Origin: a virus
Reading direction: 5' to 3' (one strand)
Virus record (IMG/VR): IMGVR_UViG_3300035670_000313
Location: 1 to 50,081 of that record
Length of the DNA: 50,081 nt
The notes beneath the pieces are model-generated. The model was given only the letters and a program-made list of their open reading frames with translations, made no database searches and was not told the DNA's origin. Positions 2,194 to 43,043 of the stretch are shown one piece after another (position 1 is the first letter of the stretch; the number at the start of each line of letters is the position of its first letter). The position numbers and the translations under genes are program-made.

Positions 2194-3297
2194 ATGACTG
2201 AAAAGATTACCGCACGTCAGCTTGAGGCTGCAAAGCTCCTTGAGGGAGCACTCCGTGGTGACCGCGCAGACAAGCTAAAGCTACAGGAAGGTATCTCTAC
2301 CTCTGACCTGCCAGTACAGCTTGCTCCAACCATCAACAAGATTATGTTGGAGAACTACGCAGCTCAGCCAAAGGTCTGGGACCGCTTCGCAACCCGTCTA
2401 GTCGTTGACGACTTCCGCCCAGTAACCTTCCAGGCTATGCGCTACGAAGACGAGGGTATGGACAACGCAGGCGACAAGTTCCGCGATGGCTCACTACCTA
2501 CCGTTGCTGAGTACAGCGAGTACCCAACCGCTGGTTGGTTCAACGTAACCGAGCAGACCATGTCTGTGAAGAAGGCAGGAACTCGTATCCGCTTCTCATG
2601 GGAGACCATCGTTAACGACGGTCAGATTGGTCTACTAGAGCGTCTACCTATCGAGCTTGCACAGAAGGCAGCTGGCAAGGAAGATGAGGAAGTTACCAAG
2701 CAGCTAGTTTCTGACTCCGGTCTAAACACCGCTAACTTCAAGTCAGCAAACCAGAACCTACTAGCTGGAAACCCAGCTCTTACCCTAGAGTCCCTAGAGG
2801 ACGCAATCGAGGCTGCTAACCTGCAGACCTGGCAGGGTAACCTAATCACCCCAATTACCCGTTTCGCACTAGTTGTACCTCGTGCGCTAGAGATGACCGC
2901 TCGTCGCATCCTTGCTGTTCAGCAGGTTCGCACCGAGACCACCTCTGGTTCAACCGTAACCTCTCTTGTAACCGGAAACCCAATCGGTTCACAGGTTGAG
3001 ATTGTTGTCAACGACTGGCTAACCAAGATTAACTCTGGCGCTGGCAACTACTGGTTCCTGATTCCAGTTCCTGGACAGTCCCTAAACCCAGGTGTAGCCC
3101 TTGGCTTCCTCCGTGGTTACGAGACCCCAGAGCTACGTATCAAGATGAACGGTGGCACCTACCTAGGTGGCGGCGACGTTCCTGCTCGTGAGGGTTCGTT
3201 CGACAACGACGACTTCGAGATGAGAATCCGTCACATCGCAACTGGTGGCTTCATTGTCCCAACCGGTACCATCGCTTCAACTGGAGCTGGTGCCTAA
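2194..3297 (+). CDS. Major capsid protein (HK97 fold)
   Basis: 367 aa. Features of HK97-type capsid proteins: a helical charged N-terminal arm (residues 1-40), a long central region of short strands and helices, and a C-terminal FEMRIRHIATGGF segment close to the typical P-domain ending. Strong AAGGA SD eight bases before ATG, a codon choice richer in C-ending codons than the fibre genes, and a 9-bp GC terminator directly downstream, all consistent with very high expression. Placed immediately after the decoration gene. Confidence 0.88.
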   Translation: MTEKITARQLEAAKLLEGALRGDRADKLKLQEGISTSDLPVQLAPTINKIMLENYAAQPKVWDRFATRLVVDDFRPVTFQAMRYEDEGMDNAGDKFRDGSLPTVAEYSEYPTAGWFNVTEQTMSVKKAGTRIRFSWETIVNDGQIGLLERLPIELAQKAAGKEDEEVTKQLVSDSGLNTANFKSANQNLLAGNPALTLESLEDAIEAANLQTWQGNLITPITRFALVVPRALEMTARRILAVQQVRTETTSGSTVTSLVTGNPIGSQVEIVVNDWLTKINSGAGNYWFLIPVPGQSLNPGVALGFLRGYETPELRIKMNGGTYLGGGDVPAREGSFDNDDFEMRIRHIATGGFIVPTGTIASTGAGA

Positions 3298-3416: not shown

Positions 3417-3647
3417 ATGTCTCAAGTAACGGTTTACACTCTTCCCTCCTGTGTGCAATGCGACAGCACTAAGCGATACTTGAAACGAGAACTAATCGAT
3501 TTTGTGGAAGTGCAGCTCCAGGATGACCCACAGGCGTACGAAATGGTCAGGGCTAAGGGATTTACTCAGGCACCAGTTGTAATGGCCGGAGAACGCATCT
3601 GGAGCGGTTTTAGAATGGATGAGCTCAAAGCCCTTAAGGCTGCTTAG
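3417..3647 (+). CDS. Glutaredoxin / NrdH-like thiol oxidoreductase
   Basis: 76 aa from ATG 3417, which has AAGAAGGA seven bases upstream; a TTG at 3384 is the only longer option and lacks an SD. Thioredoxin-fold signature: VTVYTLPSCVQC (CxxC at residues 11-14), a cis-proline segment QAPVV around residue 48, and a C-terminal helix. Known role of the family: supplies electrons to ribonucleotide reductase or reduces disulfides in the cytosol. No ribonucleotide reductase is encoded here, so it would serve the host enzyme or another target. Isolated between two terminators with its own promoter, outside any nucleotide-metabolism cluster, which is unusual. Confidence 0.85.
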   Translation: MSQVTVYTLPSCVQCDSTKRYLKRELIDFVEVQLQDDPQAYEMVRAKGFTQAPVVMAGERIWSGFRMDELKALKAA

Positions 3648-3657: not shown

Positions 3658-3666
3658 TGGTATAAT
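3658..3666 (+). promoter_or_regulatory. Extended -10 promoter TGG-TATAAT of candidate small RNA
   Basis: Perfect TATAAT with TGG extension, 11 bp after the glutaredoxin stop codon. No -35 consensus at the 17-bp position. The predicted start (about 3673) is exactly the first paired base of the following hairpin. Confidence 0.6.
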
Positions 3667-3672
3667 ATAAAT

Positions 3673-3750
3673 AGTTGCGGCTCCTCCTTCTGCAACTTAT
3701 ATAGTGCACTACAAGCCCGCCCTGTTGAGTAATCTCCGGGGCGGGTTTCT
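3673..3750 (+). ncRNA. Candidate 78-nt small RNA with anti-Shine-Dalgarno loop
   Basis: Seen: promoter TGGTATAAT upstream and a GC terminator at the end, with no ORF between. The 5' hairpin AGTTGC/GCAACT (3673-3678 with 3692-3697) carries a 13-nt loop containing CTCCTCCTT (3681-3689); CCTCCTT matches the 3' end of bacterial 16S rRNA, so the loop can pair with SD sequences. Next comes a perfect 10-base palindrome TAGTGCACTA (3702-3711), then the terminator stem. Inferred: a free RNA able to bind ribosome-binding sites of phage or host mRNAs. Alternative: merely a short leader whose transcription stops at the terminator. No known family is recognised. Confidence 0.6.
3716..3750 (+). terminator. 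Rho-independent terminator
   Basis: CCCGCCC (3716-3722) pairs with GGGCGGG (3739-3745), loop of 16, followed by TTTCTT. Ends the candidate small RNA and any glutaredoxin read-through. Confidence 0.85.
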
Positions 3751-3760
3751 TATAGCTGCC

Positions 3761-3769
3761 TGATAGAAT
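3761..3769 (+). promoter_or_regulatory. Late-type promoter TGA-TAGAAT close to the start codon
   Basis: TAGAAT at 3764-3769 with a TG extension, nine bases before ATG 3779. A start at about 3776 would give an almost leaderless mRNA; no SD precedes this ATG. Confidence 0.5.
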
Positions 3770-3778
3770 TGTAGAACC

Positions 3779-4588
3779 ATGATTATTTGGCCCGATAACG
3801 GACTGCCGCCTCAAGCCCAGGAGTGGGCCGATAAAGTTGAGACGGAAGTTACCCGTATCGACAAGAAGACGGGCGGAAGCGGAGCTTCAGGCTCAGATGG
3901 TGCTCGTGGTCCTCAGGGGCCACAAGGTCCTGCTGGCCCTCAAGGTATTCAGGGCCCGAAAGGAGACCAAGGTGAACAAGGTCCTCAAGGTGAACAAGGC
4001 TTACAAGGCGAAGTCGGACCTGAAGGGCCTATTGGCCCTCAGGGAGCTCAAGGTGAGATGGGCCCTGCTGGGCCTCAAGGCGAACCCGGCCCCCAAGGTT
4101 TGCAGGGCGAGCAAGGTCCTGCCGGTCCAACTGGACCAACCGGTCCGCAGGGTGACACAGGACCTATGGGTCCTATGGGACCACAAGGACCACAAGGTGA
4201 AGTCGGTGCTACTGGACCGATGGGTCCAATGGGAGAGACGGGCCCAGAGGGGCCTATGGGTCCTCAGGGTATTCAAGGCCCAACTGGAGCTACAGGTCCT
4301 CAGGGCCCTAAGGGCGATACTGGGTCACAAGGTCTAGACGGCCTATCGGCTTATCAGGTAGCTCAGCTTAACGGTTTTACTGGCACAGAGCAGGAATGGC
4401 TTGACAGCCTTGTTGGAGCCGATGGTGCTACGGGACCACAGGGTCCCCAAGGTATCCAAGGAGAAACTGGCCCTCAGGGTCCAGCTGGAGCCGACGGACA
4501 ACCGTATGGTAATATTGATGGAGGAAAAGCTAATAGTGTTTATGGCGGGATTAGTCCACTATTGGGCGGAAATGCGAGTAGTTTTTAA
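3779..4588 (+). CDS. Collagen-like fibre protein
   Basis: 269 aa. Residues 1-35 form an anchor ([16 protein letters not shown]) that resembles the N-terminus of the S74 fibre at 26891. Residues ~39-190 are Gly-X-Y repeats rich in GPQ, GPM and GET triplets, then a short non-collagen insert and a second repeat block, ending in a Gly/Ser-rich tail. Such triplets form trimeric rods in phage fibres. No SD is visible; the promoter sits at the start. The GGN-rich DNA also gives long false ORFs in other frames. Location after the capsid gene leaves open whether it decorates the head or the tail tip. Confidence 0.85.
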
Positions 4589-29717: not shown

Positions 29718-30035
29718 TTATTCGTCTTCGTTATCTTCGTAAAAGCGGGCAGCTTCCTCTCTGACTGCCTCGGCATCGAACTGCATATGAGCGTGACAGA
29801 ACTGGCAGGGAACCGGCTCTAGGCAGGGCCTATCGCAGTGCTCACACCAGAAGTGTTTATCCTCTGTGCCAGCGTCTACAACAGGATTTCCACAACCACA
29901 GACCATTAGCACAGACAGGGTCATGCCCGTCTCTTTGTCTGTCATTGTGTAGCCTAGATACTCGTGCTCTGGCTCGGAAAATGCAGGCGGTGGAACTTCT
30001 AGCTTAAAAAGCCTAGCTATCCACCGCCGAATCAT
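29718..30035 (-). CDS. Zinc-ribbon protein
   Basis: 105 aa. Six or more cysteines in CGCGNP, CEHCDRPC and CQFCHAH (residues ~46-82) give two treble-clef/ribbon sites; the N-terminus is basic (IRRWIARLFKLE) and the C-terminus acidic. ATGA-type overlap with the exonuclease gene upstream. No known family recognised; possibly DNA- or RNA-binding, or a partner of the exonuclease. Confidence 0.6.
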   Translation of the reverse strand: MIRRWIARLFKLEVPPPAFSEPEHEYLGYTMTDKETGMTLSVLMVCGCGNPVVDAGTEDKHFWCEHCDRPCLEPVPCQFCHAHMQFDAEAVREEAARFYEDNEDE

Positions 30036-30766
30036 ATCGCCCTTGTTACTGTTTTGTTAATTGAGATTGGTCCACGTTGCCACTTGCCACAATCTTGGCA
30101 TTGGAATCTGTGGTAAGTGCCCGACGCACTTCGTGCCACGCCTCTGCGCTGTAGGTGAGCAGAGCCACAGACCAAGCATCCCTCTTCGAGCCCATCATGC
30201 AGTGCTCGGTTTGGGTGGCCAGGAATCCAAGGCTTCAGAATCTCATAGAGGTCAATCAGTAGGTTGACATCCTGAATCTGGTACTTCTTCATCTCGGCCC
30301 AGGCCTTATTGTCGCCAGCCATACACTTCTTCCAGAGGTCGAAGCCTGAGTGTTGCACCTTGGCTCCGACACCCAGCGTCTGTGCCACGTAGTCCAGCTT
30401 GTTGCTTGGGAACTTGAACTGTGACTTCACGGCTAGCATCAAGTCCATCTCCTTGTAGGGTGATGGTGGCTTCATGCCCGCCTGCAAAAGCTCACGCTTC
30501 AAGTGCTTGGAGTCAAATGCCTTTGAGTTCCAGCCGACTAGTACATCGGCCTCGTCCAGCAGGCGGTGAACTTCCTGCAGCATGGCCTCTTTACCATCGT
30601 GGTGCACAGACTTGAAGATTACCTTCTTCTCTCCGTACCAGCGAGCGCCGAAGCACAGCATCTCGGTTGACTCCTCAATCTGGTTGATGGCAATGTTCTG
30701 CTTGAACAGGCCCCAGACGTAGGCCAGGTTTGGCGTTGTTTCAATGTCAAGAAAGAGTATCTTCAT
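30032..30766 (-). CDS. DEDD 3'-5' exonuclease with C-terminal zinc ribbon
   Basis: 244 aa from ATG 30766, which overlaps the previous stop as TAATG. RNase H-like exonuclease motifs: FLDIETTP (D7, E9), VGWNSKAFDSKHL (Exo II) and YQIQDVNLL (Exo III). C-terminal CLVCGS...CQDCGKW binds zinc. Related to the exonuclease domain of B-family polymerases and YprB-type nucleases, but no polymerase domain follows. Likely proof-reading or recombination nuclease. Confidence 0.8.
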   Translation of the reverse strand: MKILFLDIETTPNLAYVWGLFKQNIAINQIEESTEMLCFGARWYGEKKVIFKSVHHDGKEAMLQEVHRLLDEADVLVGWNSKAFDSKHLKRELLQAGMKPPSPYKEMDLMLAVKSQFKFPSNKLDYVAQTLGVGAKVQHSGFDLWKKCMAGDNKAWAEMKKYQIQDVNLLIDLYEILKPWIPGHPNRALHDGLEEGCLVCGSAHLQRRGVARSASGTYHRFQCQDCGKWQRGPISINKTVTRAI

Positions 30767-31431
30767 TAATCTACCTTCAATCCATTGACCCAAGTTCTGC
30801 CAGCGTCACCGCCCCAAGCGTCCCACGCAACGCGTCCTGGGCTTGGGTAGCCCTTCTCGCCCGCATTGAAACCAGTGGCCTGCTTGTCCACTGCATGGCG
30901 AGCAAAGTAAGCCCGCATCTTTACTACTACATCTCGGCCTACAGAGCCACCAGCAGCGAGCTGTGAAGCTCGACGGCGACCAGTCGCAGTAAAGCCATCG
31001 CCAGCCTTGCCTTCTTCAATCCACTTGATTGCTCGCTTAGCTGCACTCTGGACTCCAGCTGGAACCTTGTAGCTTGCAGCTGCTTCACGCAGTGACTCTC
31101 TTGCGTTTACAAGCCCGGGAGGAATCATTGCAAATCGACATGCGCCATCCTCTTCGATGTCCTGGTCAATCGCACTGCACTCAATCCCATCCTCGGTCAT
31201 CTGGTGGAACACACAGTTACCGCACTTTACACCAATCTCAAGGTTTGGGTTGTCAGCGGGTCCATCGTAGCCAGCATTTACTGCGCTGCCTTCGGACTGG
31301 AACTTGCCGAACTCTTGTACAACGCCGAGTAGAGCATCAACCACTGCCTTCTCGTCGCCATCAATCTGTGCGTAAAGGTCCTCGCTGAACTCTTTTACTC
31401 TAATAGGTAGTTTCTTTTTGCTCGCTGGCAT
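30766..31431 (-). CDS. Four-cysteine protein with DUF6321-like C-terminus
   Basis: 221 aa from ATG 31431 (TAATG overlap, GGGGGG upstream). Residues ~65-105 hold CGNCVFH...C...C, the four-cysteine pattern of small iron-sulfur or zinc domains in phage XkdF-like proteins. The C-terminal half (VPAGVQSAAKRAIKWIEEGK, RAYFARHAVD, GRVAWDAWGGDAGRTW) is a domain repeatedly seen in phage structural and replication proteins. Function unknown; located among replication genes rather than capsid genes. Confidence 0.55.
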   Translation of the reverse strand: MPASKKKLPIRVKEFSEDLYAQIDGDEKAVVDALLGVVQEFGKFQSEGSAVNAGYDGPADNPNLEIGVKCGNCVFHQMTEDGIECSAIDQDIEEDGACRFAMIPPGLVNARESLREAAASYKVPAGVQSAAKRAIKWIEEGKAGDGFTATGRRRASQLAAGGSVGRDVVVKMRAYFARHAVDKQATGFNAGEKGYPSPGRVAWDAWGGDAGRTWVNGLKVD

Positions 31432-31874
31432 TAATCCCCCCACCCTTCCTTTAATATAGTTGCATGTTTGTTATTGCGTAGGTAAATTATACCATGGCGG
31501 ACCGCGTCGTTGGCGTGGGGCCTGCCTGGGGCGTGGAATCCAAGCTTACGGAGTCGGTCATCTCCACAGAGTGCCTTTTGGCTTGGCTTCTGGTAGATAA
31601 TAGGTGTCAGTGCCTTGGGGTATAATGCTTCCAATGCACCGATGATGTAGACAGGGCTAAGGTCAGCCCCATAAACACCCTCTCGCAAGTCGAATGACTC
31701 ACAGATAATCTGGTCGAACTCCCAATCTTCTAGTTCGTCCCAGTGGAAGTCAAGGAATCCCTGCAAACCATTTGGAATCTGCCAAGTTTTGATTAGGTTG
31801 TACTCTGTGTCTCCGTATTCAATTATGGCTACTCCAGTTGTCCCGCCGGGGTCAAGGCTTAGCATTGTCGTCAT
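31431..31874 (-). CDS. RuvC-like / RNase H-fold nuclease
   Basis: 147 aa. Starts with MLSLDPGGTTGVAI, the first acidic motif of RuvC-like resolvases; a second acidic stretch (IICESFDLREG) and a C-terminal HANDAVRHG follow, as in Holliday-junction resolvases of the RuvC/YqgF group. SD GAGGAG. Expected to resolve branched DNA before packaging or during recombination. Confidence 0.75.
   Translation of the reverse strand: MTTMLSLDPGGTTGVAIIEYGDTEYNLIKTWQIPNGLQGFLDFHWDELEDWEFDQIICESFDLREGVYGADLSPVYIIGALEALYPKALTPIIYQKPSQKALCGDDRLRKLGFHAPGRPHANDAVRHGIIYLRNNKHATILKEGWGD
31486..31494 (-). promoter_or_regulatory. Possible internal leftward promoter TGG-TATAAT
   Basis: Within the end of the resolvase gene, read leftward: TGGTATAAT about 55 bases before the next start codon. 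Same form as the late-type elements but the only clear leftward one; could be chance. Confidence 0.3.
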
Positions 31875-32034
31875 TTAACTTCTCCTCCTTCATCTTTACT
31901 ATCTGAGTCATCTGGTAGCAAGCCACCGACAACGGGTACCTGAAGCCCATTTCGTACTTCATGGCATGAAATAGAACTGCCTCTTGGTCGAACTTTACGT
32001 TATCGAACTTTGCGTTTCTACTGTAGTTATCCAT
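31852..32034 (-). CDS. Small hypothetical protein
   Basis: 60 aa, ATG overlaps the primase stop (TAATG). Sequence NVKFDQEAVLFHAMKYEMG then SVACYQMTQIVKMKEEKLND suggests two helices; the C-terminus overlaps the resolvase start by 23 nt. No family recognised. Translationally coupled to the primase-helicase and resolvase. Confidence 0.6.
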   Translation of the reverse strand: MDNYSRNAKFDNVKFDQEAVLFHAMKYEMGFRYPLSVACYQMTQIVKMKEEKLNDDNAKP

Positions 32035-34238
32035 TACGCCAATACCTCCAAGTATGTCTTACGATTGTCCACAACGGCATGTACCCTGGCTTGCGAACTA
32101 AGCGCTTCCACCATATCATCGAACTCCCTCTTCCTCTTATTATTGAACTTGCGGTAAGCCTCCTCGTAACGGACTCGGCCACCTCGGTCAACCACGAAGG
32201 CTTCGAGCTGGTCAACATCCCTCTGCCACTCGGACGCTGAGATTGCACTTGCCATGCGGACTAGGTTCTCGAACCACTCTTCCGAGTAGTGGATTGCAGT
32301 CAGCATGTGCTGTAGCTTGACTTCGTCAGACTTATCAGCCATCGCTAGCAAGATTGCACACTTCCAGACAGACAATGCAAGACGCTGGCGAGAAGGCTCG
32401 ATAGACTCCTTCTCTCTGTGCGACTCGGCATAGTTACCCATCTCCCACTTGTACTGATTGAAGCGCTCTAGCGAAGCTTGGCTGAGTCGGACTGGCCTTG
32501 GGTTGGGCTGGCCCTTCTTCTGCCAGTAAGTCACAGCATCAAACAACTTGCGAACCATCTCGTCGAGCATGGTGTCCTTGACAACCACTTCGTACTCGTC
32601 AGCCTGCTGGATGTCCTCCAACTCTCGGCTTCGCTCTGGTGCATCTGCGGTCACGTAGATAAAACGTGCCAAGAATCCAGAGCGGAAGTACTCAGTTGTC
32701 AGAACATCGGCAACCTTACTGGTGATACCCATCAAGTACATGATGAAGTTGGTCTCAGCACGTTCGGTCTGGCGCTTGTCCTTGGATGAACGAATCACAA
32801 CCGGGACACTACCGTCGTAAAGCTCGGTGTAACGCTCAGCAGCTGAGGCCATGTAGGTCTTGTTCATAAAGTCCTTGAACATACCCTGAACCTCATCGCG
32901 GTGCAGCAAGCTGGTCTTCTTGTCGCGGTCAGCAAGGATTGCAGTCACACCTTCAGGCGTAGCGTCCGAACCGATGTCAATCTGGTAGCCACCAAACTTC
33001 TCGTAGGCACGAATCACACGCAACATCAGGTTACGGCTGGTCGACTTACGAGTTAGCGTGGTCTCACCTAGCACCATGAACCACAGGTTCAAGCCCATCT
33101 TGCCGTAGCGTGGCACAGCGTAGCCCCAGTCGGAAAAGACTGCGGATAGCACAGTGAATGCCGAAGCAATCTGGTAGCTCAGTGCACCGTCGGTCTTGGA
33201 CCTAGCCCACTTTACATAGCTGTCGATGAAGGTTGGCTCAAGTGCCACGACCTCACGCTCATCCTCGGTAAGGAATGACACCTCAACCTTGTCGAATCGT
33301 GCAACAGGTGCGTCCTCAGTAATTGGCTCTGGCACATAGTTAGCTTCACCCTGCTCTGTGATGTAGCTCTGGTGCGCCCGCTGAATCTCACGCCACAAGT
33401 CACCGTCAGCATCTGAACGCTTTGGGCGGTCAGGGCTGTGGTACTTGTTGCACTTAGCGTGGCGAGCAACAGTGAAGACTTCCTCTGGGGTCAAGCCCTC
33501 GCGGAATAGCTCCATCTCCAGCTTCCAGAGTAGGCGTGACAGGTCAGCGTTGAACGCTGGCTGCTCCATGTACAAGCCGACAATCTGTGGGTTGTGAGAT
33601 AGCTTCTCAAGCACCTCAAGAATTGGTGGGAACCCCTCAGGCATCGGGAGGTCGGCCATCTCTCGGATAGGCTCGACCTCCACGTCGCCGTAGACTGAAT
33701 TGATGTCATCAAAGCTGTAAACCTGGCCGGTGCTGGTGGCTTCGATGGACCAAGACTCTTCGCGCTTTAGGTTGCGGGTGTTTGGCAGGCGAAGCAACTT
33801 AGTTGTGTTCCAGCCAGACTTGTCGCAGCCCTGGTGAGCATGTGCGTAGGCAATCTTCTTCGCTAGCAAGGCAGCTTCAAGCGGCTCGACCTCTTGGTCA
33901 AGCATCCAGTAGGTGTGCCATCTCTTGTCTGAAGTTTGCACAGAGATGCTAGGCTCAACTAGGAAGTTCTCTGGCTGGCAAGCATCAGCGTCGGCGTAAA
34001 TTACGTGAACGGTCTTGGCGTTCTCTTTGATGCGACGCGGTGCGTTAAATAGGATTGGGGAAAAGTACACGTCCTCCATGGCGTGAGCAGTTGCAAAGGC
34101 AACCATCTCATGCTTCTGCTCTGGGTACTCGTAGAACTTCTGCTCGGTTAGGTCGCCAGTGGAAGCACTGCGTACGACAAGCGTAGCGATGCCTGTTGCG
34201 TCGCCATAAATCGCTGTCAAAAAGTCTGCTGTTTTCAT
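32034..34238 (-). CDS. Primase-helicase fusion (PrimPol-type plus DUF3987-like)
   Basis: 734 aa. N-terminal AEP/RepB-like primase: VIYADADAC (D83, D85) and RWHTYW (H108), then LLRLPNTRNLK. Middle linker helix region. From ~330 an ATPase like DUF3987 helicases: GETTLTRKS (391-399, Walker A-like), LLHRDE (Walker B, ~444-449), and MGITSK plus an arginine-rich sensor region. C-terminal ~90 residues look winged-helix-like. SD GGAGGAG. Expected to prime and unwind phage DNA for the host polymerase. Confidence 0.82.
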   Translation of the reverse strand: MKTADFLTAIYGDATGIATLVVRSASTGDLTEQKFYEYPEQKHEMVAFATAHAMEDVYFSPILFNAPRRIKENAKTVHVIYADADACQPENFLVEPSISVQTSDKRWHTYWMLDQEVEPLEAALLAKKIAYAHAHQGCDKSGWNTTKLLRLPNTRNLKREESWSIEATSTGQVYSFDDINSVYGDVEVEPIREMADLPMPEGFPPILEVLEKLSHNPQIVGLYMEQPAFNADLSRLLWKLEMELFREGLTPEEVFTVARHAKCNKYHSPDRPKRSDADGDLWREIQRAHQSYITEQGEANYVPEPITEDAPVARFDKVEVSFLTEDEREVVALEPTFIDSYVKWARSKTDGALSYQIASAFTVLSAVFSDWGYAVPRYGKMGLNLWFMVLGETTLTRKSTSRNLMLRVIRAYEKFGGYQIDIGSDATPEGVTAILADRDKKTSLLHRDEVQGMFKDFMNKTYMASAAERYTELYDGSVPVVIRSSKDKRQTERAETNFIMYLMGITSKVADVLTTEYFRSGFLARFIYVTADAPERSRELEDIQQADEYEVVVKDTMLDEMVRKLFDAVTYWQKKGQPNPRPVRLSQASLERFNQYKWEMGNYAESHREKESIEPSRQRLALSVWKCAILLAMADKSDEVKLQHMLTAIHYSEEWFENLVRMASAISASEWQRDVDQLEAFVVDRGGRVRYEEAYRKFNNKRKREFDDMVEALSSQARVHAVVDNRKTYLEVLA

Positions 34239-34267
34239 TGCTCCTCCATTCTGGTTGTCCTCCTATA

Positions 34268-34300
34268 AACTTAAGTAAGCCCTCCCGTTACTTAAGTTTA
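34268..34300 (-). promoter_or_regulatory. 12-bp hairpin next to the primase ribosome-binding site
   Basis: AAACTTAAGTAA pairs perfectly with TTACTTAAGTTT. The leftward RNA has a 9-nt loop CGGGAGGGC, itself SD-like, and is followed within four bases by the AGGAGG of the primase leader. Could control translation or be a processing site. AT-rich, no T-tract, so a poor terminator. Confidence 0.55.
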
Positions 34301-34324
34301 ATCGCATAAGCTTAATTATGCAGT

Positions 34325-34402
34325 GCCCTAGCTGAGAGTCGAACTCAGCAGTCCATAGAGATGAAACGGAGGAGGGAGGAGATGGACCACTCCTGTTAGG
34401 GC
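34325..34402 (-). other. tRNA-like element with anti-SD pyrimidine tract
   Basis: Read leftward: 5' GCCCTA pairs with TAGGGC at the 3' end; a canonical T-arm CTGAG-TTCGACT-CTCAG precedes the 3' strand. Between them, instead of normal D and anticodon arms, GTCCAT/ATGGAC closes a 25-nt loop containing CTCCTCCCTCCTCC. No CCA follows. Either a decayed tRNA or a tRNA-mimic that exposes an anti-SD tract. Anticodon cannot be assigned with confidence. Confidence 0.5.
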
Positions 34403-34480
34403 TTGTGATGGTAGACGAGCAGAAGACGTAATCGAAGTTTTTGCTAGTGAAGTAGGTTAGCAGAACCCGCCTACCATCGT

Positions 34481-34530
34481 CCCTAGCCGAGAGTCGAACT
34501 CGGAGCGCCATTGCCATACCGTATCTAGGG
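34481..34530 (-). other. Short tRNA-like element (acceptor plus T-arm)
   Basis: Read leftward: CCCTAG ... CTAGGG (6 bp) and T-arm CCGAG-TTCGACT-CTCGG, with only 21 nt between acceptor and T-arm where about 41 are needed for D and anticodon arms. Resembles the top half of a tRNA. Relic or mimic. Confidence 0.5.
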
Positions 34531-34572
34531 TTGTGCGTTTAAGCAGTCGCACCCCTGCCCTTGTTTAGGAGA

Positions 34573-35037
34573 TTACCAAGGCTTCTCATCTACTGCGGTT
34601 GCGCCCAAGGATGCAAGAACATCCTCACCGCTAGTGGCCTTATCGAAGCCACTCACCTCGTTGCGAGGAGCGCCATTGATGTCCGAGCCAACCTTGACTC
34701 GAACTCCGATACCCTTGCCCAAGATATCGGCGGTAGCTGGAACCTTGAAGTTGCCAGCCTTTACGTCGTAGCCAAGCGACTTGAAGAAAGCAGCTGCCTT
34801 CCATGCGTCGTTGCCTGCGTACAGTGGGACGTAGCTGAAGACTCGGCGGTTCTCGTACTGCCCCTCAGAGATGCGGAACTGTACATTGAAACGCGGCTTG
34901 CCCTCGTTTGGTCCGGAGCGAACAGTCTCTTCCTTGATGTCGTAGACAGTCGCGTTGTAGGAGCCAGCAGGAATCGGGTCTAGTGAACCGGTCTTGGACT
35001 CAAGCGCATCTGCGCTAAATGAAATGGTGTAACTCAT
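34573..35037 (-). CDS. DUF669-like single-strand DNA-binding / annealing protein
   Basis: 154 aa. Begins YTISFSADALESKTG and contains PAGSYNATVYDIKEE...RFNVQFRISEG, NRRVFSYVPL and a C-terminal acidic tail (GATAVDEKPW), as in DUF669 proteins that act as phage SSB-like factors beside Sak4-type ATPases. ATG overlaps the ATPase stop (TAATG). Expected to coat ssDNA during replication and recombination. Confidence 0.75.
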   Translation of the reverse strand: MSYTISFSADALESKTGSLDPIPAGSYNATVYDIKEETVRSGPNEGKPRFNVQFRISEGQYENRRVFSYVPLYAGNDAWKAAAFFKSLGYDVKAGNFKVPATADILGKGIGVRVKVGSDINGAPRNEVSGFDKATSGEDVLASLGATAVDEKPW

Positions 35038-35798
35038 TATTTACCTCCCTTGATTAGTGAATAGATTTTCTTCAGGCTTGGCTCGGTAATCACCGGAGGC
35101 AAGTTGAAGCGGTTTTTGGTAACCAGTCTGTCAGATGACTCTACGACTAGCACACGCTGGGCTGAGCCGTCTTCCTTCTTCTGAGCGGTTAGGTAACCAA
35201 TGATGTCAGGTATTCCTGGCAAGTCCTTCTTGGAACCACCTGGGATGTTTGGAACGGTCTTCACCGCACCGGTGTTCTCATCCTTCTGGTCCTCGGCGTG
35301 AGTCAGAATGATGGAAGTGAATGGAGCAGAGTGCAAGGCTCGGACTGTATCGTTAGCCCAAATCTTCAGGTCGCCCCACTTGCCGAACTTGTTACCCTTG
35401 TTCTCTGGCTTCTCGCCAAAGAACTTCTCGGCCCTGTCCATCGCAACACCGAAGGTGTCGATGATAACAGTCTTGTACTTGTGCTTGACGTTGATTAGGT
35501 CAGTGATTACCCTATCCAACTTCTCGTGAGAGTCGACGTTGATTACGTCGACTTCCTTGAAGTCGCGGGCAATAGCTGATGCTCCACCCTCGACATCGAT
35601 TAGTAGCACAGGTGATAGCTCTGCAAGCTCAGCTGCTGAAGCAGCTAGCCAAGTCTTGCCTCGGCCTGCATCACCGTAGATAAGAATCGTCTTCGGTGCG
35701 TTGAGTGCCTCTGCCTTGTGAATAAACTTGGCAAATGATAGCTCTGGGAAGTCGCTTCCCTTGGTGGCAGCTGGTGCTGCGGTTGACGTTTCGCCCAT
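35037..35798 (-). CDS. RecA-like ATPase, Sak4-type recombinase
   Basis: 253 aa. Walker A GDAGRGKT (42-49), Walker B TVIIDTFG (~110-117), an ILTHAE motif and a C-terminal NLPPVITEPSLKKIYSL. Core-only RecA fold without N- or C-terminal RecA extensions, as in phage Sak4 single-strand annealing/strand-exchange proteins. Next to the DUF669-like protein and a Cas4-like nuclease: a recombination set. Confidence 0.82.
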   Translation of the reverse strand: MGETSTAAPAATKGSDFPELSFAKFIHKAEALNAPKTILIYGDAGRGKTWLAASAAELAELSPVLLIDVEGGASAIARDFKEVDVINVDSHEKLDRVITDLINVKHKYKTVIIDTFGVAMDRAEKFFGEKPENKGNKFGKWGDLKIWANDTVRALHSAPFTSIILTHAEDQKDENTGAVKTVPNIPGGSKKDLPGIPDIIGYLTAQKKEDGSAQRVLVVESSDRLVTKNRFNLPPVITEPSLKKIYSLIKGGK

Positions 35799-35819
35799 AT
35801 TATTTCCTCCTATTTGTTA

Positions 35820-36527
35820 TTATAGCAGCCCTGACACTGAGCAGTTGAAGCACTCAGGGTGGCCTGCATATGACTCTGGATGAACTCCATTTTGTAGCTC
35901 CTCCCATAATACCACGAGCCTGTTCCACAATGCAACTGCAATAGACTCGTCGTACGCGAATGTGTATTCTAGCACATCCGAATCGCTGGTGCCGTCTCTG
36001 TTGATGAACACAAGCGAAATGTTATCAATTTGTAATCCAGACTGAGCCACGCCCCAAGCATAGAGTTGTGTCTGTCCGATGTACTTTTGCATCGTGTAGG
36101 TTGTGCCTGCATCTTGCTTGGTGCCATCGACCCATGCCTGAATCTTCTTGGTCTTTGCCCTGGTCGAAGTCTTCCAGTCTACCAAGTGGTTGATAGCTGG
36201 AAGCACAAGGTCGGGCTTGCTTGACACTGTGCCGTAGCCATCAATCTCTCCAAGCACAATCTTCTGCTCGACTCTTGCATCGACAAGTTCCTCTGCATCG
36301 GAGTGCTCAATAGCAGCTTCGATGGCTGAGTGAATCGCGGTTCCAACCTTGCCACCTAGCCAGTACTTGCTTGGCTCTGGCTCAACACCTGCCAAGGCCA
36401 GTGCCAAGTGCTTGGTGCATGGGTTAGATATCTGAGACGCTCCGACCTTCTTCTGGCCGTCACGCTCAGTCTTAGTGTTCAATAAAGAAATCGCTAAGTT
36501 CTTCAACCTCGAACCATTCGTAACCAT
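35820..36527 (-). CDS. Cas4/RecB-like PD-(D/E)XK nuclease
   Basis: 235 aa from ATG 36527, preceded by GGAGG; the frame is open further upstream only inside the WhiB-like gene. Motifs: GTAIH (62-66), KPDL (D106), DWKTS (D117, K119) and QTQLYAW (152-158). Cysteines C37, C226 and C229 suggest an iron-sulfur or zinc site, with the fourth ligand not evident. Role: exonuclease supplying single strands to the Sak4/DUF669 pair. Confidence 0.82.
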   Translation of the reverse strand: MVTNGSRLKNLAISLLNTKTERDGQKKVGASQISNPCTKHLALALAGVEPEPSKYWLGGKVGTAIHSAIEAAIEHSDAEELVDARVEQKIVLGEIDGYGTVSSKPDLVLPAINHLVDWKTSTRAKTKKIQAWVDGTKQDAGTTYTMQKYIGQTQLYAWGVAQSGLQIDNISLVFINRDGTSDSDVLEYTFAYDESIAVALWNRLVVLWEELQNGVHPESYAGHPECFNCSVSGLL

Positions 36528-37020
36528 TCTTGTACCTCCTCTTAGTGTAGTTGACTCCGCCCCAAATGCCGTACTCTTGACGGCTTGCTTCGGCAAAGTT
36601 ACCGCACTCCTTGATTAGCGGGCAACCTTCGCACAATGACTTGGCATCCCGCTTGCTTACGTGTTCTGGGTTGTCGAATATCTGTTGCATACTTCTGCAT
36701 GGCACGTCAGTCTTTTGTAACTTACTCTGCAAATCTGCAAACAACTTTGCCGAGTAGTCGTCCAAGAATACGCTCTGCGGAATTACGCTTGGCATTAGTG
36801 GCTCTGGCTTTGCCTTGGTCTTGCCTGCGTGTTTGTTCTCTTGGTACTTCTTGCGGGCATACCTTCTGCGACACTCTCGACAAACTCTGGTCTTGTCATA
36901 AGGACGGATAAAGGTATTCTCTTCGGTGAACTCATGTCCTCTGGAGCAGTGAGTACCCTTCGCTCGCTTGCGTCCCCATGGGTTGGACTTGTCAGCTTCT
37001 TCCCATACGTACTCTGCCAT
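36472..37020 (-). CDS. WhiB-family regulator with N-terminal zinc finger
   Basis: 182 aa. Residues 20-55: THCSRGHEFTEENT...CRECRRR (C25, H29, C47, C50), like the zinc knuckle of actinophage HNH proteins, without an obvious HNH catalytic histidine pair. Residues 105-160: C108, LCEGCPLIKEC (C130, C133, C139) and GIWGG, the [4Fe-4S] and turn signature of WhiB proteins, which bind sigma factor and DNA. WhiB proteins are confined to actinobacteria and their phages. Probably redirects host RNA polymerase; its 3' end overlaps the nuclease by 56 nt. Confidence 0.88.
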   Translation of the reverse strand: MAEYVWEEADKSNPWGRKRAKGTHCSRGHEFTEENTFIRPYDKTRVCRECRRRYARKKYQENKHAGKTKAKPEPLMPSVIPQSVFLDDYSAKLFADLQSKLQKTDVPCRSMQQIFDNPEHVSKRDAKSLCEGCPLIKECGNFAEASRQEYGIWGGVNYTKRRYKNGYEWFEVEELSDFFIEH

Positions 37021-37203
37021 TTAGTAATCCTCGTCGTAGTCGTAGTGCTTCGGTCTAACTTGTGAAGTCAGCGGTTGTGGTTTGAACTCTCTGGTGAACA
37101 CCATGAACAGTGGTAGCACAGTGGTCAGCAGGAATACGGCACCAACATAAGCTCCGAATCCAAGTATCAGTGCAACAATAAAGTAATGTATTGGCTCAGG
37201 CAT
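37021..37203 (-). CDS. Small membrane protein
   Basis: 60 aa. One long hydrophobic stretch YFIVALILGFGAYVGAVFLL continuing to ~residue 36, then a basic/acidic tail (RPKHYDYDEDY). SD GGAGAAGG at the start, overlapping the helicase stop. Could be an early host-takeover or superinfection-exclusion peptide; no family recognised. Confidence 0.65.
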   Translation of the reverse strand: MPEPIHYFIVALILGFGAYVGAVFLLTTVLPLFMVFTREFKPQPLTSQVRPKHYDYDEDY

Positions 37204-38569
37204 CCTTCTCCTTCAAACTTGCTCGCAAGTCCAGCTCTCGCTGGAGTAGCGTATCTAATTGTCCTTCATCATAAGTGTCACGTGCCACGATGTCATACAC
37301 CTGCACCAATTGCTTCTGCCCACGCCTGCGAATGCGGTCAAGCACCTGCTGGTTTAGGATGTTGCTATCGCTGTGGCTCAGCCACACAACTGTGCGACAT
37401 GAATCCTGCAAACCATCCACGCCCTCGGCAATCGCTGGGATTACCGCCACGATGAATCGCTTGGAACCGTTGATGAACTCCTGCTTGGCCTGCTCACGCT
37501 GTGGCTGTGTTGCCGTACCACTCCACTCGAAAGCAGAACCCTCGCCATACTTGGCATTGAGTCGGTCGGTCACAATCTTAGCGTACTTCTGGCTATCTGT
37601 CAAGAGCAACATCTTCTCATCGGGGTTGTCCTCGATAATCTCCAGTAGCGCTTGGTACTTGGTTGACACTGCGTCATCCGCAAAGTAAACCTCGCCAGTC
37701 TCGGTCAGGCTTGGCACAGCTAGGGTCATCTGGCGCAACCGAATGCGGGCTGCAATTGGAACCTCTGCAACCAGTGGGTTCTCCTGCAACCAGACAACCA
37801 AGTCGCGCTGGAACTTCTCGTAAACCTTACGCTGGCTTGGGACTAGGTCAACATACCTAGTCTCCTGCACCACGTCAATGTTATAGTCTGGCTCTAGGCG
37901 GACATAGCATGGAAGGGTATTTGCGAATGCACCTGGTACCTTCTCGCCCAGAATCTCGACGTTTGAGAATGGGTTGTAAGCGGTGTTTGCCCAACGCTCT
38001 ACCCACTTCCAGAATGACTTTGGCACAATCTTGTCATCAGGCCAAAGGAATCTAGTCACTGCCCAGAATCCCTCGAATCGGTTGCCGAATGGCGTACCCG
38101 ACATGGACAACTTGAAGCCTGCCTTCAAAGTCTTGGCAACCTTGAATCCCTTGCTTGCTCGGTTCTGCATGAAGTGGCACTCGTCAACCAACACGATGTC
38201 TGGCACAACCTTGGCCCACTCCTTGGTGCGGAAGTACTCACGACCGACAAAGTACCAACCCTCTTTGCCCTCGGTAATGCCACGCATTGCGTCGCGCCCC
38301 TTGGTGCTAGAGTCAATCTTGAACAAGCCGTTCGCGGTGTACTCGGTCTGTCTCTGAATCGTATCGTGCCATCCCCAGTAGGTGTTTAGCGGTGCGATGA
38401 TTAGCACAGTCTTAGCCTTGAGTCTGAGTGCAACCTCGGTTGCCATCAGGGTCTTGCCAGTACCCATTAGGCTAGCATTCAATGCAGCCTTGGTGGGCTC
38501 TGCGACAATCTTCTGAATCGCAACCTCCTGCTTTGCATCAGGGGTCAGCCTTGGTAGCTTCGCTCTCAT
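37196..38569 (-). CDS. SNF2-family helicase/ATPase
   Basis: 457 aa from ATG 38569 with a perfect AAGGAGG SD; the frame extends upstream but without signals. Motifs: MGTGKT (36-40 core), LIIAPLNTYWGW (Ia), DECH (129-132), MSGTP (157-160), and C-terminal helicase lobe with LLLTDSQKYA, VWLSHSDSN and DRIRRRGQKQLV (motif VI). Common in actinophage replication modules; likely moves on dsDNA in replication or recombination. Confidence 0.88.
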   Translation of the reverse strand: MRAKLPRLTPDAKQEVAIQKIVAEPTKAALNASLMGTGKTLMATEVALRLKAKTVLIIAPLNTYWGWHDTIQRQTEYTANGLFKIDSSTKGRDAMRGITEGKEGWYFVGREYFRTKEWAKVVPDIVLVDECHFMQNRASKGFKVAKTLKAGFKLSMSGTPFGNRFEGFWAVTRFLWPDDKIVPKSFWKWVERWANTAYNPFSNVEILGEKVPGAFANTLPCYVRLEPDYNIDVVQETRYVDLVPSQRKVYEKFQRDLVVWLQENPLVAEVPIAARIRLRQMTLAVPSLTETGEVYFADDAVSTKYQALLEIIEDNPDEKMLLLTDSQKYAKIVTDRLNAKYGEGSAFEWSGTATQPQREQAKQEFINGSKRFIVAVIPAIAEGVDGLQDSCRTVVWLSHSDSNILNQQVLDRIRRRGQKQLVQVYDIVARDTYDEGQLDTLLQRELDLRASLKEKDA

Positions 38570-38642
38570 TATCCTCCTTGTGACATTCACAAATACAATC
38601 AACTGTGCTGGCAACTGCGTAGCAATTGCGGTGGTCATCCAT
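38538..38642 (-). CDS. Small cysteine-rich peptide
   Basis: 34 aa from the only ATG (38642): DDHRNCYAVASTVDCICECH, then an acidic tail. The reading frame stays open upstream for ~30 codons with plausible sequence (EPPPPKQYTIFSWCK) but without ATG, GTG or TTG, so the true start may be non-standard or the peptide may be joined to the gene at 38693 by a shift. Three or four cysteines suggest a zinc knuckle. Overlaps the helicase start. Confidence 0.45.
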   Translation of the reverse strand: MDDHRNCYAVASTVDCICECHKEDNESEATKADP

Positions 38643-38692
38643 CTTGCACCAACTGAAGATGGTGTACTGCTTGGGTGGTGGTGGCTCGGTGC

Positions 38693-38899
38693 CTAGTCTT
38701 CGCTTACCCAGAACTGAACTCCGATATACCAGTGAATCAGCATCAAGTGCACCGACCTATTCAGGTGGTCGTAAGTCAGCTCCAATCCCCAGTCTCCACT
38801 CTCGCCAAAGTAAATCTCGGCTGTGTGTCCGAATGAAATGTAGCCACCGCGGAACCATTGGTGCCATGCGAAACCTAGCTTGCCCTTTTGTCTAGTCAT
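38693..38899 (-). CDS. Small aromatic-rich protein
   Basis: 68 aa from ATG 38899 (AAGGAGAG SD, ATGA overlap with the gene upstream). Basic start TRQKGKLGFAWHQW then alternating aromatic strands (AEIYFGESGDWGLELTYDHL, HWYIGVQFWVSED). A small beta-sheet protein; actinophages often carry similar 60-80 aa genes of unknown role. Confidence 0.6.
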   Translation of the reverse strand: MTRQKGKLGFAWHQWFRGGYISFGHTAEIYFGESGDWGLELTYDHLNRSVHLMLIHWYIGVQFWVSED

Positions 38900-39066
38900 T
38901 GCTCTCCTTTGATTTGTGTAATGTGTTCCTTTAGGTCGGCAACAGTCTTGCCGCAAGTGCAGTCTGTCCAGCCTGCATCAAAGCCAGCCCATTCGTGACC
39001 GTCATTGTCTTGAAGAATCTCTTGTCCAAGGCGAATCATCTCAGTCAAGTGTTCTTCCCTGCTCAC
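38896..39066 (-). CDS. Small protein with CxC motif
   Basis: 56 aa, GTG start 39066 with AAGGAGAG ten bases upstream and a GTGA overlap with the previous stop. Helix-acidic start (SREEHLTEMIRLGQEILQ), then WTDCTCGKTVADLKEHI, a probable half zinc finger with H47 and the two cysteines. Function unknown. Confidence 0.6.
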   Translation of the reverse strand: MSREEHLTEMIRLGQEILQDNDGHEWAGFDAGWTDCTCGKTVADLKEHITQIKGEQ

Positions 39067-39323
39067 TTCTGCTCTCCTTTTATTAGCTCGATTAGGTCTG
39101 TGATTGTGTATTGGTCTAGCGGATTGCAGTCATGCTCTTTGCCGTCAGCCTCGCAATCTAGGCTTTTTAGCAGCTTGATAATGCGCTCTTCAGTCTTAGC
39201 AATAATTTTTGCCTCGTATTGTGCCAGCCATAAATCAAAAGCACGCTTAGCAGCCTTGGAGTCGCTAAACTCGCCGCTGTATTCGTCACGCACTTCTTCT
39301 GTGGTGGGTATGTAGTCACTCAC
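39063..39323 (-). CDS. Small helical protein
   Basis: 86 aa. Helical AKRAFDLWLAQYEAKIIAKTEE, a middle CEADGKEHDCNP and a closing helix YTITDLIELIKGE. The final YTxxDLIxLIKGE helix recurs in the next gene (ANLLYLISKE), and both have RIxKxIxQ-type helices, suggesting two diverged relatives. SD GAGAG. Confidence 0.6.
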   Translation of the reverse strand: MSDYIPTTEEVRDEYSGEFSDSKAAKRAFDLWLAQYEAKIIAKTEERIIKLLKSLDCEADGKEHDCNPLDQYTITDLIELIKGEQK

Positions 39324-39519
39324 TTCTGCTCTCCTTGCTTATAAGGTAAAGCAGGTTTGCCATCGTGAAGTCGGGCTTACCGCTGTATTGATTTATGATT
39401 TTCACAATGCGGTCATGCTCATGCTTCACGCCTGAGTTGAATGCCCTTGTCGCATTGCCTGCGATAATCTCCTGCAACTGTCCGCTACTTGGGTGCCTTA
39501 GCATTGCTTCCTCAATCAT
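39316..39519 (-). CDS. Small helical protein, relative of its upstream neighbour
   Basis: 67 aa. Helices SSGQLQEIIAGNATRAFNSG and HEHDRIVKIINQY, closing FTMANLLYLISKE. Overlaps both neighbours by 4-8 nt. No known family. Confidence 0.55.
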   Translation of the reverse strand: MIEEAMLRHPSSGQLQEIIAGNATRAFNSGVKHEHDRIVKIINQYSGKPDFTMANLLYLISKESRSE

Positions 39520-39761
39520 AAGTCCTCCAACTCATCACGCTTGCCGTCATCTAGGAATAGCTCTGAATACAACTGCATCACTCGCTCCTCGGCAGAACCG
39601 AATGTCTCAAAGTATTCACGCCCGTTTGTCCTCGGTGCTGTAACCCAAAGGTCTAGCTCCTCGTCCACGCCGAACTCAATCGGCTTGCCAACCTGCTCTG
39701 AGTAAAACTCGGTCAGGTTTGTTGCTGTCTCGTGTAGCTCGAACCATCTATCGTCCCGCAT
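39516..39761 (-). CDS. Small acidic hypothetical protein
   Basis: 81 aa, strongly acidic (FGVDEELDLWVTAP; DDGKRDELEDL at the end). ATG overlaps the stop region of the HTH gene by 14 nt. Acidity and size would suit a DNA-mimic type protein, but there is no motif to support it. Confidence 0.55.
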   Translation of the reverse strand: MRDDRWFELHETATNLTEFYSEQVGKPIEFGVDEELDLWVTAPRTNGREYFETFGSAEERVMQLYSELFLDDGKRDELEDL

Positions 39762-40230
39762 TGATTACCTCCTGTACAACACCTTCTCGATAAAGCACCG
39801 ACTGAACCCATAGGTCTCCGTCAACTGCCGTAATGTTTTCACCGTCTTCATCAATGGTGAATGTCGCTTCGCCTGTCTGTTGGTCAGCGCCGAATGCCAC
39901 GATGCGAACCGCAAGCTGGTCACCGTATCGCACAACTCTGAGTGCGGACTGTGGCACAACGCTTGAATCGTCTACGCCTGCATCCTCAATCAGCTTGCGA
40001 ATCGTACCTGGGTCGGACGAACCATAAGCCATGCCAATCTGCCTAGCCGAATGCCCGTCAACCAAAGCCAATCGAACCGCATCAATCAGCTCGTCGTAAT
40101 ACTCTTTGGTCTCGGCTTCGATGAATGTCTTTAGCTTTTCCTGCGCTACCTTGATAGCTTCTCGGTGCTTAGCTCTGGCTTCGGTAATGGCAGATAGTCT
40201 GCCGGTGTCCTGCTTTGCTACTCTTCCCAT
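39748..40230 (-). CDS. Helix-turn-helix protein
   Basis: 160 aa. N-terminal basic coiled helix (RAKHREAIKVAQEKLKTFIE), then VRLALVDGHSARQIGMAYGS followed by DPGTIRKLIEDAG, a clear HTH of the resolvase/sigma-70 region 4 type (residues ~50-83). The C-terminal half is beta-rich and acidic. Likely sequence-specific DNA binding and thus a candidate regulator for the paired operators at 44217-44255. Confidence 0.6.
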   Translation of the reverse strand: MGRVAKQDTGRLSAITEARAKHREAIKVAQEKLKTFIEAETKEYYDELIDAVRLALVDGHSARQIGMAYGSSDPGTIRKLIEDAGVDDSSVVPQSALRVVRYGDQLAVRIVAFGADQQTGEATFTIDEDGENITAVDGDLWVQSVLYREGVVQEVINAGR

Positions 40231-40412
40231 GCTCCTACCTCCTCAAAGTAGTTGAATGTTTCATCGCACTCTGGGCATCGAACCTCGGTGTCAATCACCT
40301 TGTAGTCGTCAACCCAAAGGTCTTCCTCGAACTCGTGGTCACAAGCTGGGCAATCAAGGACGGTTGCCCTGTCGTAACTGTTGACACCACTGCCCATCCA
40401 CGTGTCTCTCAC
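40218..40412 (-). CDS. Zinc-ribbon protein
   Basis: 64 aa from GTG 40412, which follows GGAGGAG by six bases and overlaps the upstream stop (TAGTG). An upstream in-frame TTG at 40442 has no SD. CPAC (residues ~21-24) and CPEC (~46-49) form one zinc ribbon around acidic sequence. Typical phage zinc-ribbon of unknown role. Confidence 0.65.
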   Translation of the reverse strand: MRDTWMGSGVNSYDRATVLDCPACDHEFEEDLWVDDYKVIDTEVRCPECDETFNYFEEVGAWEE

Positions 40413-40861
40413 TAGTAGCTCCTCCATACTTTTAGCGTCCAAGTCTTCAGCTTATCATCAAGCAGGAAGTCTGTCAATGCCCGCTCTAGTCGCAAGAACT
40501 GCTCGCTAATCCATTCCTCTGGGTCATCGCTACCGTATTCCAACCCGCTGGCTAGCTCTGGGTCTGTGGCAATCCGTCTTGCCCGTAGGATAGCATCCTC
40601 TAGGTCAGTGCGGTCTAGGTCTAGCTCATACTCGTCCCGCTCAGGGTTGCCTGCCAAATTCCAAAGGAATGAATCAACCGCCTGCGCTCTGTGCCAAGTA
40701 GCAATCGGAATCGTAACCTCAATGTTTGCGGTTGCATTGTGGCGACCACCAATGTCTAGCGGAATCACATCCTCTAGCGCATCGCGGACTCTCTGATAAG
40801 TGTCCTTGTCCAAAAAATCCGACATGTAGTTAGTTGCTCTTAGATAAGTTGATAGTCCCAT
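40412..40861 (-). CDS. Conserved-looking actinophage hypothetical protein
   Basis: 149 aa. GLSTYLRATNYMSDFLDKDT, IEVTIPIATWHRAQAVDSFL and a long C-terminal helix EEWISEQFLRLERALTDFLL ending KLKTWTLKVWRSY. A widespread type in actinophage small-gene clusters: the DIGGRHNATANIEVTIPIATWHRAQ..HxWF pattern is familiar, but no activity is established. ATG overlaps the previous stop. Confidence 0.65.
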   Translation of the reverse strand: MGLSTYLRATNYMSDFLDKDTYQRVRDALEDVIPLDIGGRHNATANIEVTIPIATWHRAQAVDSFLWNLAGNPERDEYELDLDRTDLEDAILRARRIATDPELASGLEYGSDDPEEWISEQFLRLERALTDFLLDDKLKTWTLKVWRSY

Positions 40862-41193
40862 TAGTTTCCTCCAATTTTGATTTCATACTCTGGCAGTCGC
40901 TCCACCCAGCGAGTCACTCTAGCAGGTGGCTCTCCAATTGTCAAGTAGGTTGAGAACTCGCGGTTTGAGTAGCCCTCCCAATAAGTTCGGATGGTGTCCC
41001 ACTCTTCTGAATCTAGAATGTAAGCCACCACCTCGCGGTTCGCCTTTGCCTTCATCGCAATCTCTAGCGGTCGTCCACTTTTCTTGTCGGTGCGAATGAA
41101 CTCTCCGCCGGCAACGCCTAGCTTGTAAGCCTGTACAACTAGGACATCGTCCTTCACAAAGATGTCAAGTGCGTGTGCTTTAGTTGTTGTCAT
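40861..41193 (-). CDS. Hypothetical protein
   Basis: 110 aa. Beta start (LDIFVKDDVLVVQAYKLGVAGG) then RTDKKSGRPLEIAMKAKANR and a C-terminal RVTRWVERLPEYEIKIGG. SD GGAGGA before the next gene lies in its end. No family recognised. Confidence 0.6.
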   Translation of the reverse strand: MTTTKAHALDIFVKDDVLVVQAYKLGVAGGEFIRTDKKSGRPLEIAMKAKANREVVAYILDSEEWDTIRTYWEGYSNREFSTYLTIGEPPARVTRWVERLPEYEIKIGGN

Positions 41194-41195
41194 GT

Positions 41196-41282
41196 CTAAT
41201 CCTCAATCCACTTGGTGTCATCCAGAATCCAGCGAATCCTGTCGGCTACAATCAAAGCCTCTAGCTCATTGCTCTCAAACAT
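41196..41282 (-). CDS. Very small helical peptide
   Basis: 28 aa, ATG overlaps the upstream stop (TAATG) and follows GGGAGGGG. Acidic amphipathic helix ESNELEALIVADRIRWILDD. Strong SD and coupling make it a likely real gene. Confidence 0.5.
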   Translation of the reverse strand: MFESNELEALIVADRIRWILDDTKWIED

Positions 41283-41452
41283 TACTCTGCCCCTCCCTGT
41301 AGTCGCACAACAATCTCATTGATATCCTTGATGGTGTTCTTTATCATCAGTTGGATAATCGCCGAGTATTCCTTCTCCTGCTTGTTCCATAGGTATTGTG
41401 CGTAGTCCTTCAGGTATTGGGCTACACGCTTCTCTTCTTCTCTACTCAACAT
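41282..41452 (-). CDS. Small helical protein
   Basis: 56 aa, overlapping the end of the upstream gene by 11 nt. Entirely helical: REEEKRVAQYLKDYAQYL and YSAIIQLMIKNTIKDINEIV. SD is weak (GAGAAG region within the upstream gene). No family recognised. Confidence 0.5.
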   Translation of the reverse strand: MLSREEEKRVAQYLKDYAQYLWNKQEKEYSAIIQLMIKNTIKDINEIVVRLQGGAE

Positions 41453-41822
41453 TTGCTACGCTCTTTTCTAGGTTTAGGGTTAGTTTGCGGAATGGTCTGC
41501 GGGTGGTGTCCTGTTCCTCCCACTCGACTACAATGCCGTTCTGGGCTAGGGTCGCAAGGACTCGCTTGCCCGAGTCGTTGAGTTCTCCGTCGTCCTTAGT
41601 CAGGTTGCCATGGTTGAACATCCAATCGCTGTATTCATAGCTGTTGCCCGATACAACATTGCGGTTACCCTGCCCGCCGAAACTCCAGATTACTGGCACC
41701 TCGTCCGCTAGGTCTAGGTTCGCACAACTCTGGCAACATGCCGATACATTGCGCTTGGCTACAATCCCCTGTCGGCGTAGCTGTTTGAATGCGTTGTCTA
41801 ATCTCTTCTCTAGTGTTGTCAT
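41442..41822 (-). CDS. DUF6891-like hypothetical protein
   Basis: 126 aa from ATG 41822 (GAAGGAGG SD). LDNAFKQLRRQGIVAKRN followed by CCQSCANLDL resembles DUF6891-like proteins, in which LxxxGixaxxxFsCCqsCg is typical; the C-terminus has LATLAQNGIVVEWEEQDTTR. Has its own TTGACA-17-TAATGT promoter. Function unknown. Confidence 0.6.
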   Translation of the reverse strand: MTTLEKRLDNAFKQLRRQGIVAKRNVSACCQSCANLDLADEVPVIWSFGGQGNRNVVSGNSYEYSDWMFNHGNLTKDDGELNDSGKRVLATLAQNGIVVEWEEQDTTRRPFRKLTLNLEKSVANVE

Positions 41823-41850
41823 AATTTCCTCCTTCAGAACCAACATGATG

Positions 41851-41879
41851 ACATTATCAGATTATTTAGTTATTGTCAA
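41851..41879 (-). promoter_or_regulatory. Leftward sigma-70-type promoter
   Basis: Read leftward: TTGACA (41874-41879), 17-bp spacer, TAATGT (41851-41856), start near 41844, then SD and ATG 41822. The -35 box lies inside the last codons of the upstream gene. Confidence 0.7.
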
Positions 41880-43016: not shown

Positions 43017-43043
43017 TTTGCCCTCCTCTTGGCTTGTGTTATG

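Follow-up and report, generated by a model that had tools for sequence, protein, structure and literature searches.

A predicted phage small RNA with an anti-Shine–Dalgarno loop and its possible role in early-to-late translation

The question raised by this locus is whether a short intergenic transcription unit in the late region of a phage genome encodes an RNA that directs a copy of the 16S rRNA tail against Shine–Dalgarno (SD) sequences in trans, or whether it serves its neighbors in some simpler way. The unit occupies positions 3658–3752 of the window, which is the whole 50,081-base virus record. The host is probably actinobacterial, because the minus-strand gene at 36472–37020 has a WhiB-like domain together with HNH and because relatives of the capsid protein are found in phages of Arthrobacter, Microbacterium, Clavibacter and Streptomyces.

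Architecture of the element

The element lies on the plus strand, downstream of the major capsid gene (2194–3297, 367 aa) and of a glutaredoxin/thioredoxin-like gene (3417–3647) that separates the two and has an SD of its own, AAGAAGGA. It opens with an extended −10 promoter, TGGTATAAT (3658–3666), without a −35 box, and is predicted to encode a non-coding RNA of ∼80 nt (3673–3752) whose start follows from the spacing to the −10 and whose end is set by the terminator. Transcription is predicted to start at A3673, the base that opens hairpin 1 (3673–3697), in which a stem supported by both the fold and compensatory changes, AGUUGCGG/CUGCAACU, closes the loop CUCCUCCUU (3681–3689), with CCUCCUU at 3683–3689. 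A linker (3698–3712) leads to hairpin 2 (3713–3748), a predicted intrinsic terminator with a conserved UGUUGAG...CUCC, a UU bulge, and a U-rich stem 3′ end and tail.

The extended −10, the start at the first base of the hairpin, the GC terminator and the copy of CCUCCUU from the 16S rRNA tail had all been described in an initial annotation of this DNA, and all are borne out in the sequence. The loop, given there as 13 nt, is 9 nt long in the minimum-energy fold, where G–U and G–C pairs extend the stem. The RNA folds with an energy of −32.2 kcal/mol (z = −4.6), and none of 200 shuffled sequences was equally stable. A descriptor scan gave a single match in the window genome, compared with three in 1.64 Mb of shuffled sequence.

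The gene that follows has a separate −10, TGATAGAAT (3761–3769), 9 nt before its ATG (3779–3781), and no SD; its message would be leaderless or nearly so. The same TGnTAnAAT type of −10 occurs at other late-strand starts of the window (798, 3761, 6120, 8531, 9407 and 17018), and the early strand carries promoter-like sites with TTGACA −35 boxes. Leaderless messages are also predicted at the late-strand starts 8546, 12150, 15117 and 28081, where, as at 3761–3781, a −10 hexamer stands 6–9 nt before the start codon.

Conservation among capsid-locus relatives

A nucleotide search in named phages gave no match, and relatives were reached through the capsid protein, a search with which returned 80 viral loci. 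From 27 aligned elements, the window copy among them, we built a two-hairpin consensus and a covariance model. Both stems covary in related phages, which is what the initial annotation had proposed to look for: 14 of 18 pairs show compensatory changes on both sides, all five modeled pairs of the hairpin 1 stem do so across relatives, and 98.6% of cells are paired, compared with 84.9% in column shuffles and 36–54% with slid partners, figures that are somewhat favored by the derivation of the structure from the same alignment. The model scores the window copy, which belongs to the 27 used to build it, at 73.3 bits (E = 4.9e-15). It matches 65 of the 80 capsid loci, each time on the coding strand; on the minus strand there are four weak matches, which are reverse images of the strong ones that they overlap. 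Twelve of the 15 loci without the element end at most 1.3 kb from the capsid gene and the other three hold 1.5–3.3 kb of downstream sequence, and in some relatives (L007 and L067, for example) the element is found ∼2–4 kb further downstream. There is one copy per long or complete genome of the window's clade and of the next clade; in G018, the most distant of those genomes, the model score is weak (E = 0.04) and the sequence is clear by eye. We conclude that the element is far beyond chance.

Relatives in which the flanks are conserved and the loop is not pyrimidine-rich, named at the outset as evidence that would speak against the reading, were looked for and the opposite was found: the hairpin 1 stem is rewritten (GUUGC, GUUCCG, GCCCG, GCAGCG, GUCACG, GUCCCA), and the CUCC core is kept in the loop. 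Of the 57 distinct elements, a count that includes the doubtful L083, L108 and L138, 51 contain CTCCTT and 46 are preceded by a −10 of the TGnTAnAAT type in its strict pattern. A T4-like late promoter, TATAAATA at 3666–3673, is not kept in relatives, unlike TGnTAnAAT, and was rejected. Also rejected was an antisense reading, in which the minus-strand AAGGAGG would serve as an SD: no ATG, GTG or TTG follows it at the spacing expected of an SD, and the stem around it varies among relatives.

In hairpin 2, UGUUGAG and UCC are kept around the UU bulge. The conservation of UGUUGAG...CUCC and of the bulge (UUC in Clavibacter phage CN1A) within this hairpin (3723–3736) exceeds the needs of termination. 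The 10-base palindrome reported in the initial annotation, TAGTGCACTA, is indeed present at 3702–3711, but it does not belong to the conserved part of the element: among the 27 aligned copies, it or a near copy is restricted to the window and its close relatives L003/L033, and the remaining linkers are variable, often UGUGUUGUGU-like, or almost absent.

Variants of the element also occur in named phages. In CN1A, the same post-capsid place holds the hairpin GTGGTCG-TTTCCTCCTTCT-CGACCAC (model E = 1e-5), and in Stenotrophomonas phage Jojan60 it holds TTGTTGGCG-TTTCCTCCTTTC-CGCCAACAA, which has a weak model score and an independent descriptor match. The position and design of the element are thus kept in these two phages at a capsid identity of only 40–46%. 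By eye only, we found a CTCCTCCTCCTTC-type loop nested in a terminator stem in Microbacterium phages Pavlo and ISF9, and GTTCCTCC in a terminator loop in Arthrobacter phages Amigo and Molivia, in each case post-capsid; the name ISF9 for L264/G022 is assigned from a capsid position equal to that of KJ173786. Curtobacterium phage Yappy has a descriptor match away from the capsid site that could be due to chance, and a descriptor scan of Nonagon, LuckyBarnes, Montesquieu, TripleJ and Pan2 gave no match.

The 97 stretches from a viral pattern scan were sorted by structure, and many are chance matches in coding sequence. Ten pattern matches in unrelated bacterial or archaeal contigs were treated as chance, as none fits the model convincingly. 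Four viral contigs of other lineages (L083, L108, L138 and L168) have CCTGTTGAG terminators with CTCCTT nearby; L083, L108 and L138 are treated as doubtful look-alikes and are not used as evidence, though they stand within the count of 57.

Shine–Dalgarno strength in early and late genes

Open reading frames (ORFs) were called by a mechanical procedure that chose starts by the same rule on either strand, and genes were classed as early or late by strand and gene content, strand standing in for timing. In the window, the median anti-SD energy is −6.3 kcal/mol for late genes and −10.2 kcal/mol for early genes (p = 1.5e-5), and GGAG is present in 10% of late but 69% of early SD regions, compared with a coding background of 5–8%. 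The AUC rises to 0.95 when only ORFs of 110 aa or longer are counted, and the minus strand contains AGGAGG 23 times, the plus strand five times. SD strength divides the genome in two, an observation that is new here: genes of the early (replication) strand (30032–45626, minus), which are the proposed targets, have strong GGAGG-type SDs, and late genes have weak SDs or are apparently leaderless. When a leaderless-type start is defined as a −10 hexamer 4–9 nt before the start codon, in-family genomes each have 2–7 such starts among late genes and 0–1 among early genes.

The six relatives first tested for this split gave p values of 0.0002–0.001. Among the 22 phages to which an element is assigned, the mean AUC is 0.69 and 21 have a value above 0.5; the mean is 0.49 in nine comparison phages, a small set picked for the lack of a visible element in their capsid relatives. 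The two groups differ with p = 4e-5, or p = 0.0015 with one value per clade, in a comparison where many genomes are close relatives and clade counts are not independent. ISF9 has a look-alike element but no SD split (AUC 0.48), and at some ORF-length cutoffs comparison phages reach 0.61 (G021) and 0.78 (LeeroyJenkins, at 110 aa or longer).

For the window loop, all seven of the top predicted targets lie on the early strand. The best predictions include a primase-like gene (32034–34238) and the genes at 31431–31874 and 39748–40230, and a further proposed target lies at 41442–41822 (all minus strand). Loops pair with the early start regions of their own genomes slightly better than the row/column-mean expectation (p = 0.014), and the corresponding value for late start regions is p = 0.44, in a test that is small and carries no correction for shared ancestry. 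The earlier suggestion that the RNA could bind SD sequences in trans thus draws sequence-level support from the SD split, the lack of an evident cis target, this fit of own loops to own early genes and the conservation of the loop.

A candidate translational switch and its alternatives

Phages switch from early to late expression mainly via transcription. The reading that we favor for this element, with moderate confidence, is that it encodes a trans-acting anti-SD RNA of the late region that shifts translation toward late and away from early (and host) messages, and so acts as an early-to-late translational switch. The extended −10 promoter would produce the two-hairpin RNA alongside the late genes, with hairpin 2 probably terminating transcription, and hairpin 1 would present the copy of the 16S rRNA 3′ tail at the 5′ end, pair with SDs and block 30S binding. 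As the RNA accumulated late in infection, translation of early phage (and host) messages would fall and virion protein synthesis would continue. The effect would be selective because translation of early genes, and probably of many host genes, depends on GGAGG-type SDs; late messages, with a weak SD or none, would be spared.

In favor of this switch are the conserved structure and loop, the single copy per complete genome, the post-capsid position and the SD split. Against it, strong early and weak late SDs could result from early competition with the host and from strong late transcription, and competition with ribosomes would demand large amounts of the RNA. Our judgment is evenly divided on the broader proposal that the element represents a widespread, as yet undescribed class of phage small RNA in which a copied anti-SD tail and genome-wide SD sorting together make an RNA-only early-to-late translational switch. 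If true, there would be a second layer of switching in which one small RNA sorts two classes of message by their attraction for ribosomes, and the poor SDs of late genes in phages with the element would be explained. The system would also provide a way into leaderless translation in actinobacteria, and the question lends itself to direct study in cultured phages, among them Clavibacter phage CN1A, Stenotrophomonas phage Jojan60, Arthrobacter phage Amigo and Microbacterium phages.

Alternatively, the RNA might act mainly against host mRNAs, in host shut-off or ribosome release; the SD split in the phage would then arise because late genes must escape it, and repression of early genes would be incidental. 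In favor of this, the anti-SD sequence of the loop is generic and GGAG is rare at late-gene starts, but the fit between own loops and own early genes suggests that phage early mRNAs are targets as well, and we consider action mainly on the host fairly unlikely. The location upstream of a late gene and the terminator at the end of the element would also suit a cis function, as leader and attenuator or antitermination site of that gene, comparable to the short leader that precedes a Q-controlled terminator. This we find improbable. In 51 of the 57 distinct elements a −10 followed by a start codon lies downstream. With this −10 of its own immediately ahead of the start codon, and in most cases no SD with which to pair, the downstream gene offers no evident cis target. 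The type of downstream gene varies by clade while the element is constant, and read-through control leaves the anti-SD loop unexplained.

Hairpins at the 5′ end often stabilize RNAs, and hairpin 1 might protect the 5′ end or stiffen the promoter/terminator module, with a pyrimidine loop that is neutral; retention of the loop while its stem is rewritten, and recurrence of the same loop core in distant phages, make this highly implausible. We give equally little credence to a decoy for a protein or nuclease that recognizes the 16S tail or CU-rich RNA, such as a MazF-type toxin cutting beside the anti-SD. Removal of the anti-SD by a mycobacterial MazF is on record (PMC12274833), but the required CACCU site occurs in some loops and not in others (L028 has CACCTCC, the window CTCCTCC), and a decoy does not predict the genome-wide SD split.

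Relation to known RNAs

The initial annotation knew of no described phage RNA of this design. In agreement, the whole window contains no match at or above the gathering score of any Rfam family, the passages covered from a 2025 review of phage small RNAs mention no such RNA (PMC12197685), and we found no phage RNA with this anti-SD-loop design in the open-licence literature, where searches on leaderless phage late genes in Thermus and on actinophage non-coding RNAs also gave nothing useful. Bacterial RNAs that display an anti-SD are already known. In alphaproteobacteria, αr14/NfeR1 (RF02344) has hairpins with hypervariable stems and the anti-SD motif unpaired in their loops, and silences at translation start regions (PMC7143759). 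The window RNA shares with it the combination of variable stems and a conserved anti-SD loop; their anti-SD loops are aligned with each other by the Rfam model, and each RNA finishes with a terminator-like hairpin. However, αr14 is bacterial and has three hairpins that all carry the motif, whereas the window RNA has two, of which the second is the UGUUGAG terminator, and lies in a phage late region. Its score against RF02344 is 17.2 bits, compared with a gathering cutoff of 58.8.

The csRNAs of Streptococcus pneumoniae (87–151 nt) begin with a 5′ stem-loop, end in a terminator and carry a stretch complementary to SD and AUG; they repress comC translation (PMC4387999). Stem-loop, SD-complementary segment and terminator recur in the window RNA, but the csRNA anti-SD lies in an unpaired linker between hairpins rather than in the loop of hairpin 1, and csRNAs are CiaRH-controlled bacterial RNAs with specific targets. 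The 6C/B11 RNA of mycobacteria, also actinobacterial, represses G-rich 5′ UTRs by pairing through the C-rich loops of two hairpins (PMC10470900); these loops are C-rich rather than CCUCCUU, the gene is bacterial, and the window falls below the Rfam gathering score for 6C. The window RNA is a member of none of these three groups.

The window may encode a second non-coding RNA, at 46076–46265 in the region where early and late genes diverge; the relatives compared gave no clear match to this stretch. A TTGAAC-17-TATAAT promoter is followed there by ∼120 nt of GC-rich, strongly folded sequence (−54.5 kcal/mol), and a TGCTAAGAT-type −10 lies shortly before an ATG.
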